The translations under genes and the position numbers were made by a program. Under the pieces are notes generated by a model. The model did not search any database. It saw only the letters and a list, made by a program, of their open reading frames with translations, and was not told where the DNA came from. Below, one piece after another: positions 16,732-23,459 of a stretch of DNA of 64,000 bases. Each line of letters starts with the position of its first letter. Position 1 is the first letter of the stretch. The stretch spans positions 1,984,001-2,048,000 of the forward strand of contig NZ_CP035130.1 in assembly GCF_004101785.1 (NCBI RefSeq), read 5' to 3'. The stretch is from Gudongella oleilytica. Lineage in GTDB: Bacteria > Bacillota > Clostridia > Tissierellales > Tissierellaceae.

Positions 16732-16784
16732 TACCCTTTACAGACAGCTGAAGTATTTATTGCTCCAGCTTTCTGTAAAGGGTA
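16732..16784 (-). terminator. Long hairpin spanning the stop codon of the sigma-54 regulator
   Basis: TACCCTTTACAGA (16732-16744) pairs perfectly with 16772-16784, and AGCTG (16746-16750) pairs with 16766-16770. One arm encodes the last residues of the regulator. No U-run follows on the minus strand. It probably acts as a transcript end or as a barrier to readthrough from the MerT-like gene on the opposite strand. Confidence 0.6.
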
Positions 16785-18490
16785 GCAATGCTAATGCCAA
16801 GCTGTTTTGCCAGCTCCTTTTTTGCTTCGACTGAATCGCCCGTCACCTGAAGTCTCGATTGTATCAGGTCTCTCTCATATGCCTTTGTAAGCTCCGAAAG
16901 CATCCTGGTATCAACATTTTGTGATGCTGTCATCTTTCTTGAAAGGTATTCCTCATTGACTCTGGACTCATTTGAGAATATTACACAATATTCTATTAGA
17001 TTCTTAAGCTCTCTTATATTTCCGGGAAAACTGTATTTCAGGAGTAAACGCTCAGCACCGGGAGTAAAGCCGTAAATCGGCTTCTGGTAAAGTCTGCTGA
17101 AATGCTCCAAAAAATCCCTGGCCAGTATTAGAACATCGTAGCCTCTATCCCGCAGCGGTGGAATGAACAGAGGTACAATATTAAGCCTGTAGAACAGGTC
17201 CTCTCTGAAATAACCATCTCTTGTCATTTTGGCAAGATCCTTGTGTGTTGCCGATATTATCCTCGGATTTACCTTTATGCCCATGTGGCCCCCTACCCGT
17301 ATTATCTCCTTTTGTTCGAGAGCTCTTAGAAGCTTCACCTGCATCCCAAGTGGAAGCTCACCTATTTCATCCAGAAACAGAGTACCATCTTTTGCAACCT
17401 CAAAAATGCCCAGTTTGCCCGATGAGCTGGCACCGGTGAATGAACCTTTTTCGTAGCCAAAGAACTCGCTTTCCATAAGGTTTTCCGGGATCGCACCGCA
17501 GTTTACAGGCTGGAAGGTCTGCTCGCTCCTGTTGCCTGCAAAATGTATTGCTCTTGCGAAGATCTCCTTCCCGGTTCCAGTTTCTCCAAAAATAAGCACT
17601 GACGCATCGCTTCCGGCAACCTGGATAGCTTGCCTCCTGGCGGTTTTTATTGCTTCACTCTCTCCAAGTATATCCTCGAATGTTACTATCTCGTTTCCCT
17701 TCCTGGACTTGAGAACAGACTGCTTCATTTTCCCAAAGTCGCTGAGTACCAATACATATCCACCCCTGCCTCCATCTGAGATTATCGGATTGCTCTGGAT
17801 TATGTACTCTTCACCACGTATATTTACAGGACCAAGCTCCCCGGAAAAACCCTTGGAGCTTAGCTTGTCCAGTACCGACTCGGGAAGGATCTCTCTTATA
17901 AGGTATTTTCTGCCCTGTTCCAGATCCATCCTTTCTGATAAATATGCATTGACTGATGCCACTCTCATTGCTTCATCTATGATCAATATGCCCTCTGTTA
18001 TGGAGTTTATAAGAGTCTCAAGCTCATTCGACCTGTATTCCAGCTGTTTGCCATAGTCCTTCTCCTTCAGCATTGTATTTATGATCCCTTTGAGCTGATC
18101 CTCAAGCCTCTCATAGCCATCTCTGTTGTTTAGAAGGTTATCCCGCGATTTCTCGTCAAATGCACATAGCCCCAATACTCCGATGATATCGCCCTCGTAG
18201 CTTATGGGGAGACATATCTCGACGAGTTCGCTGCAATCATCCTTGCTCTCGCAATCGCCGCATATGCAGTGAAGCCTTGGATTCTCTATAAAGTACTGTT
18301 CGCCTGTATTAATACACTTATGAAAGGCAGAATTGCTGGGTGCTTGTCTTCCGATCGCCTCACTGTGCCTTCCTGTCCCAACCACTCTTTCAAGGCTTTC
18401 ATCTACGATGGTGATATCTACATTTGTCACTGCATGAAGTGCTTCAATTATGTGCTGCAGTTCGCCCTTTATATTATTGAGCATGCTCAT
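16757..18490 (-). CDS. Sigma-54-dependent activator with Cys-rich sensor and PAS domain, probable regulator of the cysteine desulfidase gene
   Basis: 577 residues. The N-terminal ~130 form a GAF-like sensor with six cysteines, at about 59, 75, 77, 80, 86 and 93 (HCICGDCESKDDC), which could hold an Fe-S cluster or sense a thiol. A PAS domain follows (about 155-245). The AAA+ domain (about 270-505) has Walker A GETGTGKE, the sigma-54 contact loop GSFTGA (usual form GAFTGA, here with Ser), and Walker B TLFLDEIGELP. A Fis-type helix-turn-helix closes the protein (LAKQLGISIATLYRKLEQ). It is divergent from a gene with a consensus -24/-12 promoter, so it almost certainly activates that gene. The signal, perhaps cysteine, is inferred. 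Confidence 0.9.
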   Translation of the reverse strand: MSMLNNIKGELQHIIEALHAVTNVDITIVDESLERVVGTGRHSEAIGRQAPSNSAFHKCINTGEQYFIENPRLHCICGDCESKDDCSELVEICLPISYEGDIIGVLGLCAFDEKSRDNLLNNRDGYERLEDQLKGIINTMLKEKDYGKQLEYRSNELETLINSITEGILIIDEAMRVASVNAYLSERMDLEQGRKYLIREILPESVLDKLSSKGFSGELGPVNIRGEEYIIQSNPIISDGGRGGYVLVLSDFGKMKQSVLKSRKGNEIVTFEDILGESEAIKTARRQAIQVAGSDASVLIFGETGTGKEIFARAIHFAGNRSEQTFQPVNCGAIPENLMESEFFGYEKGSFTGASSSGKLGIFEVAKDGTLFLDEIGELPLGMQVKLLRALEQKEIIRVGGHMGIKVNPRIISATHKDLAKMTRDGYFREDLFYRLNIVPLFIPPLRDRGYDVLILARDFLEHFSRLYQKPIYGFTPGAERLLLKYSFPGNIRELKNLIEYCVIFSNESRVNEEYLSRKMTASQNVDTRMLSELTKAYERDLIQSRLQVTGDSVEAKKELAKQLGISIATLYRKLEQ

Positions 18491-18716: not shown

Positions 18717-20006
18717 ATGACAAATTCTAACGTATTGATCGATATATTAAAGGACCAGGTCAAGCCTGCACTTGGCTGTACGGAGCCTGGAGCTGTTGCT
18801 TTTTGCGCAGCAAGAGCAGCCGAACTGCTGGCATGCCCGGTTGAAAAAATGGAACTGGTGGTAAACAATAATATTTTGAAAAATGGAATGAGTGTGGGAA
18901 TACCGGGCACTATCGAGAGAGGTCTTGACTTCGCAGCCGCTCTTGGCATCTTCTGCGGCAACCCCGATTACGGGCTTGAGGTCCTAAAGACTATTGATGG
19001 ACCCTGCATATCAAAATCCCGGGAAATGGTCGATGCCGGAAGAATAAAGGTGATCCTTGACAAGGAACTTACCAGTCTTTACATAAAGGCCACAGCATGG
19101 GGTGAAGGAAACATATCTGAAGTTGAAATCAAGGATACCCATACAAATATAGTTCTTGAGAGACTGAATGGTCATATCACATATCAGAAGGATCAATCAT
19201 TTGCTGAGGATCAGCGGCCAAATCCTAAAACAGAGGACATTAGATTCAGGATAAAGGAATTTACTATCGGGCAGCTTATTGACTTTGCCAATGAATGCCC
19301 TATAGAGGACCTGTCCTTTATCAACGATGGGATCGAGATGAATCTTTCACTGGCAAAAGTGGGAATCAATGAGGATATCGGGCTCGGAATGGGCAAGCAC
19401 TTCAAGGCTCAGATAACCGACGCCTTTTCCAAGGCAAAGGCATATACGGTATCGGCATCAGAGGCAAGAATGACTGGATATCCACTGCCTGTAATGAGCA
19501 GCGCCGGATCAGGAAACCATGGCCTGGTTGCAATAATACCCATCTCTGTACTTGGGCTGGAATCAGGCGTTGAAAAAGACCTGATAATTCGATCAGTAGC
19601 ACTTAGTCACCTTGTAACAATCTATGTAAAGGTACACCTTGGAGTGCTTACTCCAGTGTGTGGATGCGGCGTAGCTGCAGGGGTAGGCTGTGCATCCGGT
19701 ATTGCAAATTTAAAATCCGGGACAGTTGAACAAATTGAGGCTTCAATAAATAATATGATTGCGGGAGTTTCTGGAATGTTTTGCGACGGTGCAAAGATAG
19801 GCTGTGCTTATAAGCTTGCCATATCTGTCGATGCTGCAAAAGATGCATCCTTAATGGCTCTGTCAGGCATCCGGATACCCTCCGACAATGGGATCCTGGG
19901 AAATACTCCCGAAGAATCCATAAGAAATCTTGCGCATGTTTCAACCAAGGGCATGAGCAACACCGACGAAGCTATATTGGATGTAATGATCGAGAAATGC
20001 GTATAA
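18717..20006 (+). CDS. cyuA: L-cysteine desulfidase (CyuA/UPF0597 family, 4Fe-4S)
   Basis: 429 residues of the UPF0597/serine-dehydratase-alpha-like family, which degrades L-cysteine to pyruvate, ammonia and sulfide using an oxygen-sensitive Fe-S cluster. Conserved cysteine motifs are visible: LGCTEPGAVAFC near residue 20, and CGCGVAAGVGCASG and MFCDGAKIGCAYK in the C-terminal half. The central SSAGSGNHGLVAIIPI is also family-typical. The ATG at 18717 follows GGAGGTGGAGAT. It is transcribed alone from a sigma-54 promoter and ends at a hairpin terminator at 20013. The divergent activator suggests induction by cysteine or a related signal. Serine deaminase activity cannot be excluded from sequence alone. 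Confidence 0.88.
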   Translation: MTNSNVLIDILKDQVKPALGCTEPGAVAFCAARAAELLACPVEKMELVVNNNILKNGMSVGIPGTIERGLDFAAALGIFCGNPDYGLEVLKTIDGPCISKSREMVDAGRIKVILDKELTSLYIKATAWGEGNISEVEIKDTHTNIVLERLNGHITYQKDQSFAEDQRPNPKTEDIRFRIKEFTIGQLIDFANECPIEDLSFINDGIEMNLSLAKVGINEDIGLGMGKHFKAQITDAFSKAKAYTVSASEARMTGYPLPVMSSAGSGNHGLVAIIPISVLGLESGVEKDLIIRSVALSHLVTIYVKVHLGVLTPVCGCGVAAGVGCASGIANLKSGTVEQIEASINNMIAGVSGMFCDGAKIGCAYKLAISVDAAKDASLMALSGIRIPSDNGILGNTPEESIRNLAHVSTKGMSNTDEAILDVMIEKCV

Positions 20007-20012
20007 AAATCG

Positions 20013-20034
20013 ATGGGAGCCAAATGGCTCCCAT
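20013..20034 (+). terminator. Terminator between convergent cyuA and the alkyltransferase gene
   Basis: A 9-bp stem ATGGGAGCC / GGCTCCCAT with loop AAAT follows the cyuA stop by 6 nt and is followed by the T-rich TATTAGTTTTG. Confidence 0.75.
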
Positions 20035-20051: not shown

Positions 20052-20525
20052 TTATTCGATATTGCCTGCCTGCTCAAGCTTCAACAATTTTCCCTTGATA
20101 TCAAGACCGCCGCCGAATCCTACCAACCCACCGTTGGTTCCTATGACTCTATGTCAAGGAACGATAATAGATATCGGATTATGATGGTTTGCGCCACCTA
20201 CTGCCCTCATTGCCTTTGGCTTGCCTATTTGGATCGCAATGTCCTTGTAGCTTCTGGTCTCGCCGTAGGGTATTGTCTTAAGTGCTTCCCATACGATTTT
20301 TCTAAAATCTGTTCCCTCCATAAGTAAAGGAAGCTGAAACTCCCTCCTGTCTCCATTAAGGTACTCCTCAATTTGTGCAATGCAGGTTTCAATAAGTTCA
20401 GTTTTCTTATTCTCATAGCCCTTCGGATTTAATCTTCCAAAATAAAGTCCATTAATAAAGCCTGATTTTTCAGTTACAGTCAATGCTCCTATCAGTGTGT
20501 CAAAGCTATAAAAACTATCCTTCAC
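20052..20525 (-). CDS. O6-alkylguanine-DNA alkyltransferase (Ogt/MGMT type) with selenocysteine at the catalytic position (UGA at 20154-20156)
   Basis: With UGA read as selenocysteine the frame gives 157 residues. Residue 124 (TGA) falls exactly on the alkyl-accepting cysteine of the PCHRV motif: the sequence reads NPISIIVP-U-HRVIGTNGG. Downstream, GGLVGFGGGLDIKGKLLKLEQ is the conserved C-terminus with the active-site Glu. Upstream are the arginine-finger helix (MRAVGGANHHNP) and PYGETRSYKDIA. The GTG at 20525 follows AGGAGG by 7 nt. A hairpin whose 5-nt loop GGUGG begins 22 nt after the UGA is a credible SECIS. The enzyme repairs O6-alkylguanine by irreversible transfer of the alkyl group to its active residue. 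A recent nonsense mutation is the alternative, but 33 intact conserved residues after the UGA argue against it. Confidence 0.85.
20122..20138 (-). promoter_or_regulatory. SECIS-like hairpin of the alkyltransferase gene
   Basis: On the mRNA ACCAAC (20138-20133) pairs with GUUGGU (20127-20122) around a 5-nt loop GGUGG. The loop starts 22 nt after the UGA and has the G/U at its 5' side expected for bacterial SelB binding. The hairpin lies inside the coding region, as usual in bacteria. Confidence 0.75.
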
Positions 20526-20536
20526 TATAAAACCTC

Positions 20537-21304
20537 CTAATTCCTCATTTGCTTATACCTTTCAATGTTCTCATCACTTAAAAACTCATATGCCTCGTTT
20601 ATCTCCTGGAACCTTCTTGTTGCGTCAGGAGAATGATTTATATCAGGATGGTATTCCTTCGCCTTCTTTCTATAGGCTAGCTTTACCTGGTATTTGTCTG
20701 TGTCCGTCCCGACTCCAAGGGTAGAGCATGCTTTTTCATATCTTGATCTGAACTCTGTCATCGGGTTGGAATAGGGCTGCTGCCTGTAGTACCCACCCTG
20801 TTGCTGGCTCTGCTGCTGATAGCTTTGCCATTGTCTGAACCTTTCTTCCCATTCCCTTTGCTGCTGCTGTTGCCTTTCTGCTCTCTCCCTGCTTATCCTC
20901 TCCTCCTCCATTCGCTGATACTTATGTCCGTATTCGGAGAAACTCTTGTATTGACCCTTGCCATCCATCAGGTAGCTGCCAAGGTCGAACAGATATTCCG
21001 TGACTATGTATTTCAGATATTTCAAAAAGGATATGAATTTATAACCCAGAATTGGGAATACAACAAAAAAAACTATCGCCATCAGGGTTACAGGATTTAA
21101 AAGCAATAAAAGACCGGCGGGAGTCGACAAAAGGAGTATCAACAGACATCCACCCATCCCGATAAGTGCGGCAACTGCACTTGCTATTCCAGCAACAAGG
21201 CTTACTGCCGCTCCTGCTATCCAGATGAACAAGTCGAAGATCGCTGACAAAAATTGACCGAAGGCATATATTACCTTCCCTGTTATTTTCTTGATTATTC
21301 TCAT
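20537..21304 (-). CDS. Membrane-associated J-domain protein
   Basis: 255 residues. The N-terminal ~110 hold two or three hydrophobic segments (VIYAFGQFLSAIFDLFIWIA; LLLLLNPVTLMAIVFFVV). A Gln/Arg-rich charged segment follows (ERAERQQQQQREWEERF) and then a C-terminal J domain (about residues 190-255) with the HPD motif in KEYHPDINHSPDATRRFQEIN. The J domain would stimulate an Hsp70 (DnaK) at the membrane. It lacks the Gly/Phe and zinc-finger parts of DnaJ, so it is a specialised co-chaperone. The ATG at 21304 follows GGAGAAATTAA. It ends 12 nt before the alkyltransferase gene, so the two may be cotranscribed. Confidence 0.85.
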   Translation of the reverse strand: MRIIKKITGKVIYAFGQFLSAIFDLFIWIAGAAVSLVAGIASAVAALIGMGGCLLILLLSTPAGLLLLLNPVTLMAIVFFVVFPILGYKFISFLKYLKYIVTEYLFDLGSYLMDGKGQYKSFSEYGHKYQRMEEERISRERAERQQQQQREWEERFRQWQSYQQQSQQQGGYYRQQPYSNPMTEFRSRYEKACSTLGVGTDTDKYQVKLAYRKKAKEYHPDINHSPDATRRFQEINEAYEFLSDENIERYKQMRN

Positions 21305-21439
21305 TTAATTTCTCCATTCATAAAAATAAGCCGAAGCCTGATTCCATTGTATTTTGTTTTATAGAGTGTGTCAATGAATGGCTTGTTTATGGATGCTCCC
21401 TGTGGTTTATTTTTTACTCTTTGGTCCATGATGATTAAT

Positions 21440-21929: not shown

Positions 21930-23459
21930 ATGGATTTTAACGAAAAGCTTGATTTTCTTATGAAGCTAACCAATACAAGCAATAGTATGCTGGCAAGACA
22001 CATAGCCATGGACCCTTCTTTCGTCAGCAGGCTTAGATCAGGTACAAGGAAGCCCTCAAAAAATGAAGATTATATAGAGCCAATATCAAGGTTTCTTTCA
22101 AAGAGGTGTACAGAGGATTACCAGAGAGACGGCTTGTTTGATGCATTAGGCGTCAACCAAAGGCAGGTATCAACTGACTCCGCAAGCATATCAGGATTGA
22201 TGATATCATGGCTCCAAAACAGGGAATCTGCAGCAGATGATCATATAGTATCTCTTATTAAGAACATAGATGAATTCAGCTTCAAGAAGCCGCAGACCCA
22301 GAATACAGAGACTGCGGGACTTCCACTTGAGAGGATAGATTCGGGGACCTATGTGGGCATAGAAGGAAAAAGGCAATGTGTGCTGGCATTCCTTTCAGCA
22401 GTAATACAATCACCATCACCCCAGACGCTTCTTCTTTACAGCAACGAGGATCTGGAATGGTTAGCGGGAGATCCTGCCTTTACTGCTAAATGGGCAGCCT
22501 TGTTCTTTGAGGTATTGAAGAGGGAAAATAACGTAAAGATCGTGCACACAGTAAGCAGATCTCTTGACGAGATGCTCGCCGCCATAAAGGAGTGGCTGCC
22601 GTTCTACATGACTGGCCGGATAGAGCCTATGTACTATCCAAAGACAATGGATGGGGTCTTCAGGAGAACTATGTTCATCGCTCCGGAAACCTGTGCCTTG
22701 ATATCCAACTCGGTGGGCAGTACTTCAAGCAGCTCAGTCAACAATTACTTCACTGATCAGACTGCAATTAAAGCGTACGAGGTTGAATTCGCTGATTTTT
22801 TAAGGCAGTGCAGGCCTTTAATGAAGATATTCAATCCAATATCTTCAGCTGAGCACCTGGAGTCAATGGTAGAGTTCGAAAACGAAGACGGCGACATAAT
22901 GATAAGGTCCAGGATCCTGTCATCATTCACCTTTCCGCAATTCCTGCTTGAGAGGATCCTGAAGGAACCGAACCATCCTGACAAGGCATCAATGATCACT
23001 TTCCACAGGATAAGACTGAATAGGCTGATCCAAAGCCTTGCAACCAGCAGGATAACAGAAATAGTTGCACTTCCGGCTATTGAGGATATAAAGGAAAAAA
23101 GAATCCCCATAGGATTCTCGACAATGTTTTCCGAGAGGGAGATACCTTATGACCAGTACACAATGAAGGCACATCTTGAAAATATCGTATCTCTATTAAA
23201 GCATCACGAGAATTACAATGTAGCGCTGCTTGACAGTTCAGATGATGACCTATCTATATATATCAAGGAGAATGTTGGACTCTTCGTTCTAAAATACAGC
23301 ATCCCATCCATAGCCTTTGCAATCAATGAGCAGGGAATGACTTCAGCCTTCTGGAACTACCTGAAACTCAAGATGAAGCAGGTGACCCCCGATAAATCAG
23401 GCAAGGAAAATACTATAAAAGCAATCAACGACTACATCAAAAGAATGGGCATCCAATAG
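21930..23459 (+). CDS. HTH regulator-like protein with large uncharacterised C-terminal domain
   Basis: 509 residues. Residues about 1-60 look like an XRE-type helix-turn-helix (LARHIAMDPSFVSRLRSGTRKPSKN). The remaining ~440 residues match no family I can name. They contain a segment LFDALGVNQRQVSTDSASI, a putative ligand or protein-interaction region (TLLLYSNEDLEWLAGDP) and no obvious transmembrane helices. AGGAGGTGTAGGCT precedes the ATG, and a TATACT-like -10 lies just upstream. Large XRE proteins of this kind are recurrent in Clostridia. The gene stands alone between a divergent small protein and a convergent CBS gene, so the target is unknown. Confidence 0.7.
   Translation: MDFNEKLDFLMKLTNTSNSMLARHIAMDPSFVSRLRSGTRKPSKNEDYIEPISRFLSKRCTEDYQRDGLFDALGVNQRQVSTDSASISGLMISWLQNRESAADDHIVSLIKNIDEFSFKKPQTQNTETAGLPLERIDSGTYVGIEGKRQCVLAFLSAVIQSPSPQTLLLYSNEDLEWLAGDPAFTAKWAALFFEVLKRENNVKIVHTVSRSLDEMLAAIKEWLPFYMTGRIEPMYYPKTMDGVFRRTMFIAPETCALISNSVGSTSSSSVNNYFTDQTAIKAYEVEFADFLRQCRPLMKIFNPISSAEHLESMVEFENEDGDIMIRSRILSSFTFPQFLLERILKEPNHPDKASMITFHRIRLNRLIQSLATSRITEIVALPAIEDIKEKRIPIGFSTMFSEREIPYDQYTMKAHLENIVSLLKHHENYNVALLDSSDDDLSIYIKENVGLFVLKYSIPSIAFAINEQGMTSAFWNYLKLKMKQVTPDKSGKENTIKAINDYIKRMGIQ

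Follow-up and report, generated by a model that had tools for sequence, protein, structure and literature searches.

The window (the whole 64,000-nt stretch of Gudongella oleilytica DNA analysed here) carries on its minus strand a gene of the MGMT/Ogt family whose frame runs through a TGA and which, judging by its sequence, can be regarded almost with certainty as a genuine selenoprotein gene (Table 1). The single in-frame TGA lies within IIVP-U-HRVIGTNGGLVGFGGGLDIKG, and the plus-strand frame at the same place, 20052-20525, is unrelated.

Table 1. Features of the locus and its surroundings (positions within the window).
Feature	Position	Strand	Remarks
Predicted Sec-containing MGMT/Ogt gene	20052..20525	-	GTG start 20525, TAA stop 20052-20054, 157 residues
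In-frame TGA, predicted Sec codon	20154..20156	-	Residue 124, alkyl-acceptor position of P-U-H-R-V
Putative ribosome-binding site AGGAGG	20533..20538	-	Read in the sequence; 7 nt before GTG, overlaps the stop of the dnaJ-domain gene
SECIS-like hairpin	20122..20138	-	Stem ACCAAC (20138-20133) / GUUGGU (20127-20122), loop GGUGG (20132-20128)
Intrinsic-terminator-like hairpin	20013..20034	-	Just after the TAA; match called on the + strand too
dnaJ-domain gene (255 aa)	20537..21304	-	Pfam DnaJ, E 3.9e-17; directly upstream of the Sec MGMT gene
Promoter-like site TTGACA-17-TACAAT	21346..21374	-	Upstream of the dnaJ-ogt pair; weak, a consensus match alone
509-aa ORF	21930-23459	+	No Pfam match
SDH_alpha-type protein	18717-20006	+	
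Sigma-54 activator	16757-18490	-	

The preliminary description of this DNA had placed the TGA where the alkyl-accepting Cys of the PCHRV motif belongs, and this is confirmed by the frame, by domain matches across the TGA and by alignments, with the gene on the minus strand. Both domains of the MGMT/Ogt family (COG0350) are present above their gathering scores: the DNA_binding_1 match (PF01035, E 7.9e-34) runs across the TGA, and the Methyltransf_1N match (PF02870, E 1.5e-5) lies upstream of it. The protein also scores 113.9 bits against the NCBIfam ogt model TIGR00589, whose cut-off is 46.4. In the comparison with Cys homologues that the description had proposed, the TGA stands opposite Cys in an 18-row alignment and, in a solved OGT, opposite the Cys of PCHRV. 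The acceptor motif thus reads P-U-H-R-V, which departs from the family motif on a strict Cys reading and agrees with it if Sec is admitted; we admit it because published lists file Sec forms in this family and because engineered Sec works at this position. As is usual for bacterial selenoproteins, the UGA is aligned with Cys in homologues and the frame is conserved beyond it. A strict PUHRV pattern found a single match in the window, against an average of 0.00 in 100 shuffles. Elsewhere in the window, five TGA-joined frames fall for the most part between the large ORFs or beyond them, and the remaining four are without a Pfam match at E 0.001.

An AlphaFold model of the protein, with Cys placed at residue 124, has a mean pLDDT of 93.8 and superimposes on the solved OGT (VIA-align Z 23.7, 151 residues aligned, 1.7 A); against human MGMT chains, Z is about 19-20. 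Residues N116, H125, E151, R107 and Y93 of the window protein, which correspond to human N137, H146, E172, R128 and Y114, are invariant across the 18 alignment rows. In the human protein, R128 is the finger Arg and Y114 the Tyr of the active site. Its active-site residues also include N137, H146 and E172, as given in the available part of the source (PMC4150793).

The dnaJ-domain gene and the Sec MGMT gene are likely to share a transcript, and a dnaJ-domain neighbour, directly upstream and on the same strand, is also found at the loci of three congeners (L057, L082 and L090). The N-terminus of the DnaJ-domain protein is hydrophobic, and its middle part is rich in Gln. Promoter-like sites are no commoner in the region than chance would give (4, versus 5.1 in shuffles), and terminator-like sites number 5, versus 1.5 in shuffles. 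Among the surrounding genes, the 509-aa ORF has a 49% identical relative near the Sec MGMT of L082, and the gene for the SDH_alpha-type protein adjoins that of the sigma-54 activator; relatives of these two also lie beside Sec MGMT in L057 and L090. A scan of viral contigs with the strict PUHRV pattern gave 0 matches, and therefore no phage link was found for Sec MGMT.

Selenocysteine machinery and the hairpin downstream of the UGA

By its gene content, the organism should be able to make selenocysteine. The genome, a single contig of 2,356,157 bases, has selA (620.7 bits), selB (384.6 bits) and selD (395 bits), each over its family cut-off, as well as a tRNA-Sec gene (selC) at 71.4 bits, for a cut-off of 47; all four are clustered at C1:1393240-1398456. 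Absence of these genes had been named beforehand as a finding that would speak against a selenoprotein, and all four are there. The cut-offs make this a meaningful test, since loose matches are also common in control genomes: among 14 of these, selB, tRNA-Sec and selD each gave loose matches in 14/14 and selA in 4/14, while matches above cut-off were found in 2 (selB), 5 (tRNA-Sec), 1 (selA) and 2 (selD). A second place in the genome of the window narrowly exceeds the tRNA-Sec cut-off, at 50.7 bits, and was taken as another tRNA. The selD gene (L018:1501-2427, minus strand) has an in-frame TGA of its own, in SG-U-AAKIG, and its product is probably a selenoprotein itself.

The preliminary description had a stem-loop with loop GGUGG starting 22 nt after the UGA; the hairpin is indeed present, with nt 22 marking the start of the loop and not of the stem, whose six contiguous pairs join nt 16-21 and 27-32. 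It lies just downstream of the codon and a G opens its apical loop, as expected of a bacterial SECIS element; following SECIS work, our scan set limits on where the loop starts and how large it is, and asked for a G at one of its first two bases. For the window gene, a hairpin at least as stable arises in 4.3% of 1000 synonymous recodings (p 0.043; 2% of 60 in a smaller run), and an unconstrained fold of 76 nt including the UGA prefers other pairing, in which the hairpin is absent; support from this single sequence is modest for these two reasons. The position of the hairpin is kept in the four members of the genus. Between congeners, both bases have changed in three of the six pairs, namely the innermost (C-G/A-U), the second (A-U/G-C) and the outermost (A-U/G-C). 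The hairpins of L082 and L090 do not close the innermost pair and have a 7-nt loop.

As a group difference, SECIS-like hairpins are clearly stronger in Sec than in Cys MGMT genes. Their z-scores against synonymous controls are lower in 71 Sec than in 40 Cys genes (Mann-Whitney p 3e-6, kinship ignored), and within a sample of one order, centred on Desulfobacteraceae, they are lower in 32 Sec than in 42 Cys genes (p 9e-6, kinship again ignored). Gene by gene, a hairpin p of 0.05 or less is reached by 14/71 Sec and 4/40 Cys genes, and by 5/32 Sec and 5/42 Cys genes within the order sample. In this sample, the best hairpin has its loop 18-25 nt after the codon and GG within the first three loop bases in 28/32 Sec genes versus 5/42 Cys genes (Fisher p 3e-11, kinship ignored). 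The hairpin of L096 (Gemmatimonadales) is no better than chance (p 0.65), and this gene was kept among the Sec genes.

Distribution of the Sec form and its exchange with Cys

The strict pattern, [IVM]PUHRV[IVM]...G...G[FY], was run on 84,980 species, each represented by one genome, and matched in 70 contigs; being strict, it misses many. Their labels span Bacillota, Fusobacteriota, Nitrospirota, Nitrospinota, Desulfobacterota, Planctomycetota, Chloroflexota and others. In 69/70 of these contigs, the match to an HMM made solely from Cys rows extends across the TGA, with a weakest E of 1e-20. One match, L093 (Flavobacteriaceae), has a broken frame with 8 codons before the stop and selB below cut-off, and was dropped from the Sec counts. 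The 40 genomes tried for selB comprise 37 that hold full-frame contigs (out of 69 such contigs), the L093 genome, G000 (the genome of the window) and G101; 35 of them are over the cut-off. Besides L093, the misses are L052, L054, L060 and L105, MAGs that have full MGMT frames and yet selB below cut-off; incomplete assembly or false calls are possible reasons.

Two orders were sampled more densely. Around L056, a Desulfobacteraceae MAG, 67/80 genomes have an MGMT match and 36/80 have TGA at the acceptor, each codon having been checked; around Propionigenium maris (L081), there is a match in 51/60 and a TGA in 2/60, both at the acceptor. Two flagged genes were set aside: L165 (G250:C158), for which the search indicated a TGA, has TGT at the acceptor and was counted as Cys, and L126 (G053:C26), with one TGA and four TAA, gave no acceptor-codon row and was not counted. 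L190 and L199 are Sec MGMT frames whose motifs, P-U-P-R-V and A-U-H-R-V, are unusual. A short version of the Sec gene, with the motif EVPUHRVV, is carried by 18/69 contigs, labelled Desulfobacterales, Deltaproteobacteria, Proteobacteria and similar; the single one scanned (L056:3088-3402) has 105 residues and consists of the DNA-binding domain alone, a size resembling that of ATL proteins. Taken together, these sequence searches suggest that Sec-MGMT is commoner than published lists show.

Sec forms do not constitute one clade, and the sequences indicate that Sec and Cys were exchanged more than once. A tree was built from 167 rows (81 Sec, 86 Cys), remaining from 205 after removal of rows over 85% identical within each state. 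Parsimony requires no fewer than 15 Sec/Cys changes, compared with a mean of 56 for shuffled labels; with 110 columns and 78/164 inner branches open, the resolution of this tree is poor, so that the figure is what parsimony counts on an uncertain topology. Taken by themselves, the starred branches require 3 changes, and the grouping of all Sec rows is rejected by the AU test (p 1e-10, quick tree). The Cys rows come from relatives of the window and from the order samples around L056 and Propionigenium, and the Sec rows largely from the motif pattern, so that neither set is a fair sample of MGMT; as the rows are uneven and the tree is unrooted, gains and losses of Sec are not separable. The Sec clade of four to which the window belongs (SH-aLRT 90) sits among Cys relatives, and the tree unites its 10 short EVPUHRVV rows in a starred group. 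In the Cys gene L233 (G234:C549), which is sister to the Sec gene L201 (SH-aLRT 91), the SECIS-like hairpin is strong (p 0.01); this gene looks like a recent Sec-to-Cys change, but its hairpin could be due to chance, as 5/42 Cys genes reach p 0.05.

Sec-MGMT is therefore not a rarity, being found in several phyla and in nearly half of the genomes of one order sample, and having been repeatedly exchanged with Cys.

Active site, proposed reaction and competing readings

We infer insertion of Sec, transfer of the alkyl group to Se and a single turnover, and the product of the window gene is, on the strength of its sequence, very probably a single-turnover O6-alkylguanine-DNA alkyltransferase with selenocysteine as the acceptor. 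The mechanism is most likely the ordinary alkyltransferase reaction carried out with a selenolate. SelB and Sec-tRNA-Sec would decode the UGA (20156-20154), helped by the downstream hairpin; the protein would flip O6-alkylguanine out of the DNA, and the selenolate would then attack the alkyl carbon, yielding guanine and a spent, Se-alkylated protein.

Engineered human MGMT supports this scheme by analogy. In the available part of the source, the U145 form gives an E. coli ada ogt double mutant protection against MNNG, and the N137A substitution inactivates the C145 but not the U145 protein (PMC4150793). The pKa of Sec is given as 5.2-5.5 (PMC4150793; PMC13188914, both seen in part). The advantage of Sec is likely to be a selenolate that needs no help from Asn137; the preliminary description had suggested that Sec may gain rate or allow de-alkylation. 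The Asn equivalent to Asn137 is nonetheless found in 103/103 distinct Sec rows, as in 99/99 distinct Cys rows, and the motif patterns did not require it. The equivalents of His146 and Arg128 are present in 102/103 and 101/103 distinct Sec rows, respectively, so that these 103 rows give no sign of a remodelled active site at the Asn, His and Arg positions. The Tyr114 equivalent is found at the fixed distance in 83/103 Sec rows; the other 20, nearly all from the short class, have a Tyr one residue later. A Glu at the fixed distance of +27 is found in 55/103 Sec versus 83/99 Cys rows, while a loose, length-tolerant Glu motif, which is a weak test, matches 103/105 Sec and 100/100 Cys rows (L142 and L143 repeat L074 and L091 and bring the Sec rows to 105 when counted twice). 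Retention of the Asn in Sec rows is not predicted by the pKa argument alone: this residue may serve in some other way, it may be maintained by sufficiently frequent reversion to Cys, or even a selenolate may still gain from it.

Several other readings of the gene can be weighed against a one-shot selenoprotein, and a pseudogene, a sequencing error, Trp decoding and a regulatory stop are all rejected for the window gene on the evidence that follows. The first accepts Sec and questions the suicide reaction: the Se-alkyl group could be removed with turnover, or the selenol could serve in redox sensing. Sec is mostly found in redox enzymes with many turnovers, whereas an alkyltransferase would use it a single time, and a costly residue consumed with each lesion is odd; the repeated exchange with Cys shows Sec to be at least tolerated repeatedly. 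Against this stand the absence of a CxxU or UxxC partner at the site, the retention of Asn, His and Arg at the site of alkyl transfer, and the nature of the sole other gene in the likely transcript, which codes for a DnaJ-domain protein; for the engineered U145 protein, the available part of the report speaks of survival and not of turnover (PMC4150793). We consider this reading very unlikely. A more specific version, in which Sec-MGMT would be a turnover enzyme of selenium-rich anaerobes with an alkylated selenolate acceptor that can be restored, and not a suicide protein, appears slightly less likely again. The question raised is why Sec should be spent in a one-shot reaction, and the close natural Sec/Cys pair formed by L201 and L233 is well suited to asking what Sec buys.

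The UGA could also act as a switch, selenium limitation leading to a 123-residue fragment with a function as regulator or blocker. Such a fragment is likely to arise during Sec decoding in any case, as a by-product; here, the stop would fall inside the DNA-binding domain and before the last helix (141-154), so that the fragment probably folds poorly, and no regulatory gene is seen in the likely transcript. A regulatory stop is for these reasons highly improbable.

Still less credible is a nonsense mutation of a Cys MGMT, now a pseudogene, or a sequencing error. TGC and TGT are one base away from TGA, and decayed MGMT frames exist (L093 and the G053 row mentioned above, with its several stops). 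In addition, the genome of the window encodes a full Cys-type Ada with Ada_Zn_binding, HTH and both MGMT domains (L121:1986-3005, that is, about G000:C1 93985-95004), so that genes for Cys and Sec acceptors coexist and the Sec MGMT gene could be dispensable. At least 141 of the 150 genomes searched among the relatives, that of the window included, have an MGMT. On the other side, the acceptor codon is TGA in 4/4 searched genomes of the genus (G000-G003), in four more of the same order (G078, G101, G121 and G127) and in several tens of genomes elsewhere. In the three congeners (G001-G003, 93-97% complete), one MGMT apiece is among the matches listed, in the TGA form. Beyond the TGA, the window and each congener have 19-22/28 residues in common, and 11-16 of the codons for these differ synonymously; identity despite synonymous codon change points to selection on this part as protein. 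Decay of the frame downstream of the TGA in close relatives, which the preliminary description had named as decisive against a Sec codon, is thus absent, the frame being under purifying selection in the congeners. The hairpin and the sel genes likewise argue against a dead gene.

ATL proteins have Trp or another non-nucleophile at the acceptor position, are made of a single domain, bind lesions and do not repair them. Their DNA-binding domain is folded like that of the window protein (Z about 11, 82 residues aligned). A reading of UGA as Trp, giving P-W-H-R-V and such a protein, finds some backing in a weak sequence match to a solved ATL (E 7.6e-7), but it can be dismissed almost entirely, since TGA is an ordinary stop that ends 13/46 window ORFs of at least 200 aa, tRNA-Sec and SelB are encoded in the genome, the 40 other MGMT rows from relatives, Ada of the window genome included, all have TGC or TGT here in a scan that allowed TGG, and the window protein, unlike ATL chains, which align from residue 70 on, has the N-terminal domain in addition to a Sec codon.

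Relation to known Sec- and Cys-type alkyltransferases

The preliminary description had surmised that Sec members might already appear in selenoproteome surveys, and they do. A table of the 2008 GOS survey lists a Sec 'Methylated-DNA-protein-cysteine methyltransferase', seemingly on the basis of one Sec sequence (PMC2398784), and reviews of 2022 and 2026 have a Sec-MGMT row (PMC9312934, PMC13188914), which in the table of the latter seemingly stands under 'Predicted with high confidence' (PMC13188914). Going by the table descriptions in the available parts of these sources, the surveyed Sec-MGMT (example ABB14497.1) belongs to the same family, PF01035 / COG0350, and its Sec is predicted; the position of Sec, its breadth and its lineage are not stated in those rows. 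The window gene is therefore not of a new kind, and its family is an already listed selenoprotein family. What the present sequences would add is the breadth of the Sec form, its repeated exchange with Cys, a short single-domain Sec class, and the conservation of an Asn that is dispensable in engineered Sec-MGMT. The prevalence and exchange data go beyond the table rows of the surveys, as far as these are available, and we do not claim them as unpublished. In the accessible parts of the literature searched, no purified natural Sec-MGMT was found, natural forms being present in selenoproteome lists and in an algal survey only. The Sec-containing MDP named in the algal survey is eukaryotic, in contrast to the gene described here (PMC7539508, seen in part).

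Engineered human MGMT (hAGT) with Sec at Cys145 resembles the window gene in having Sec at the homologous acceptor, and protects in vivo; from what is available of that report, it is artificial and decoded from UAG, whereas the window gene is natural and would be decoded from UGA with a SECIS-like hairpin (PMC4150793). Fold and active-site motif are also common to the window protein and to the Cys-type proteins OGT (4wxc/4wx9), E. coli Ada (1sfe) and human MGMT (1eh6). Cys-type Ogt and Ada have a Cys acceptor where the window gene has a Sec codon, and the window protein is 44-45% identical to the OGT chains 4wxc/4wx9.
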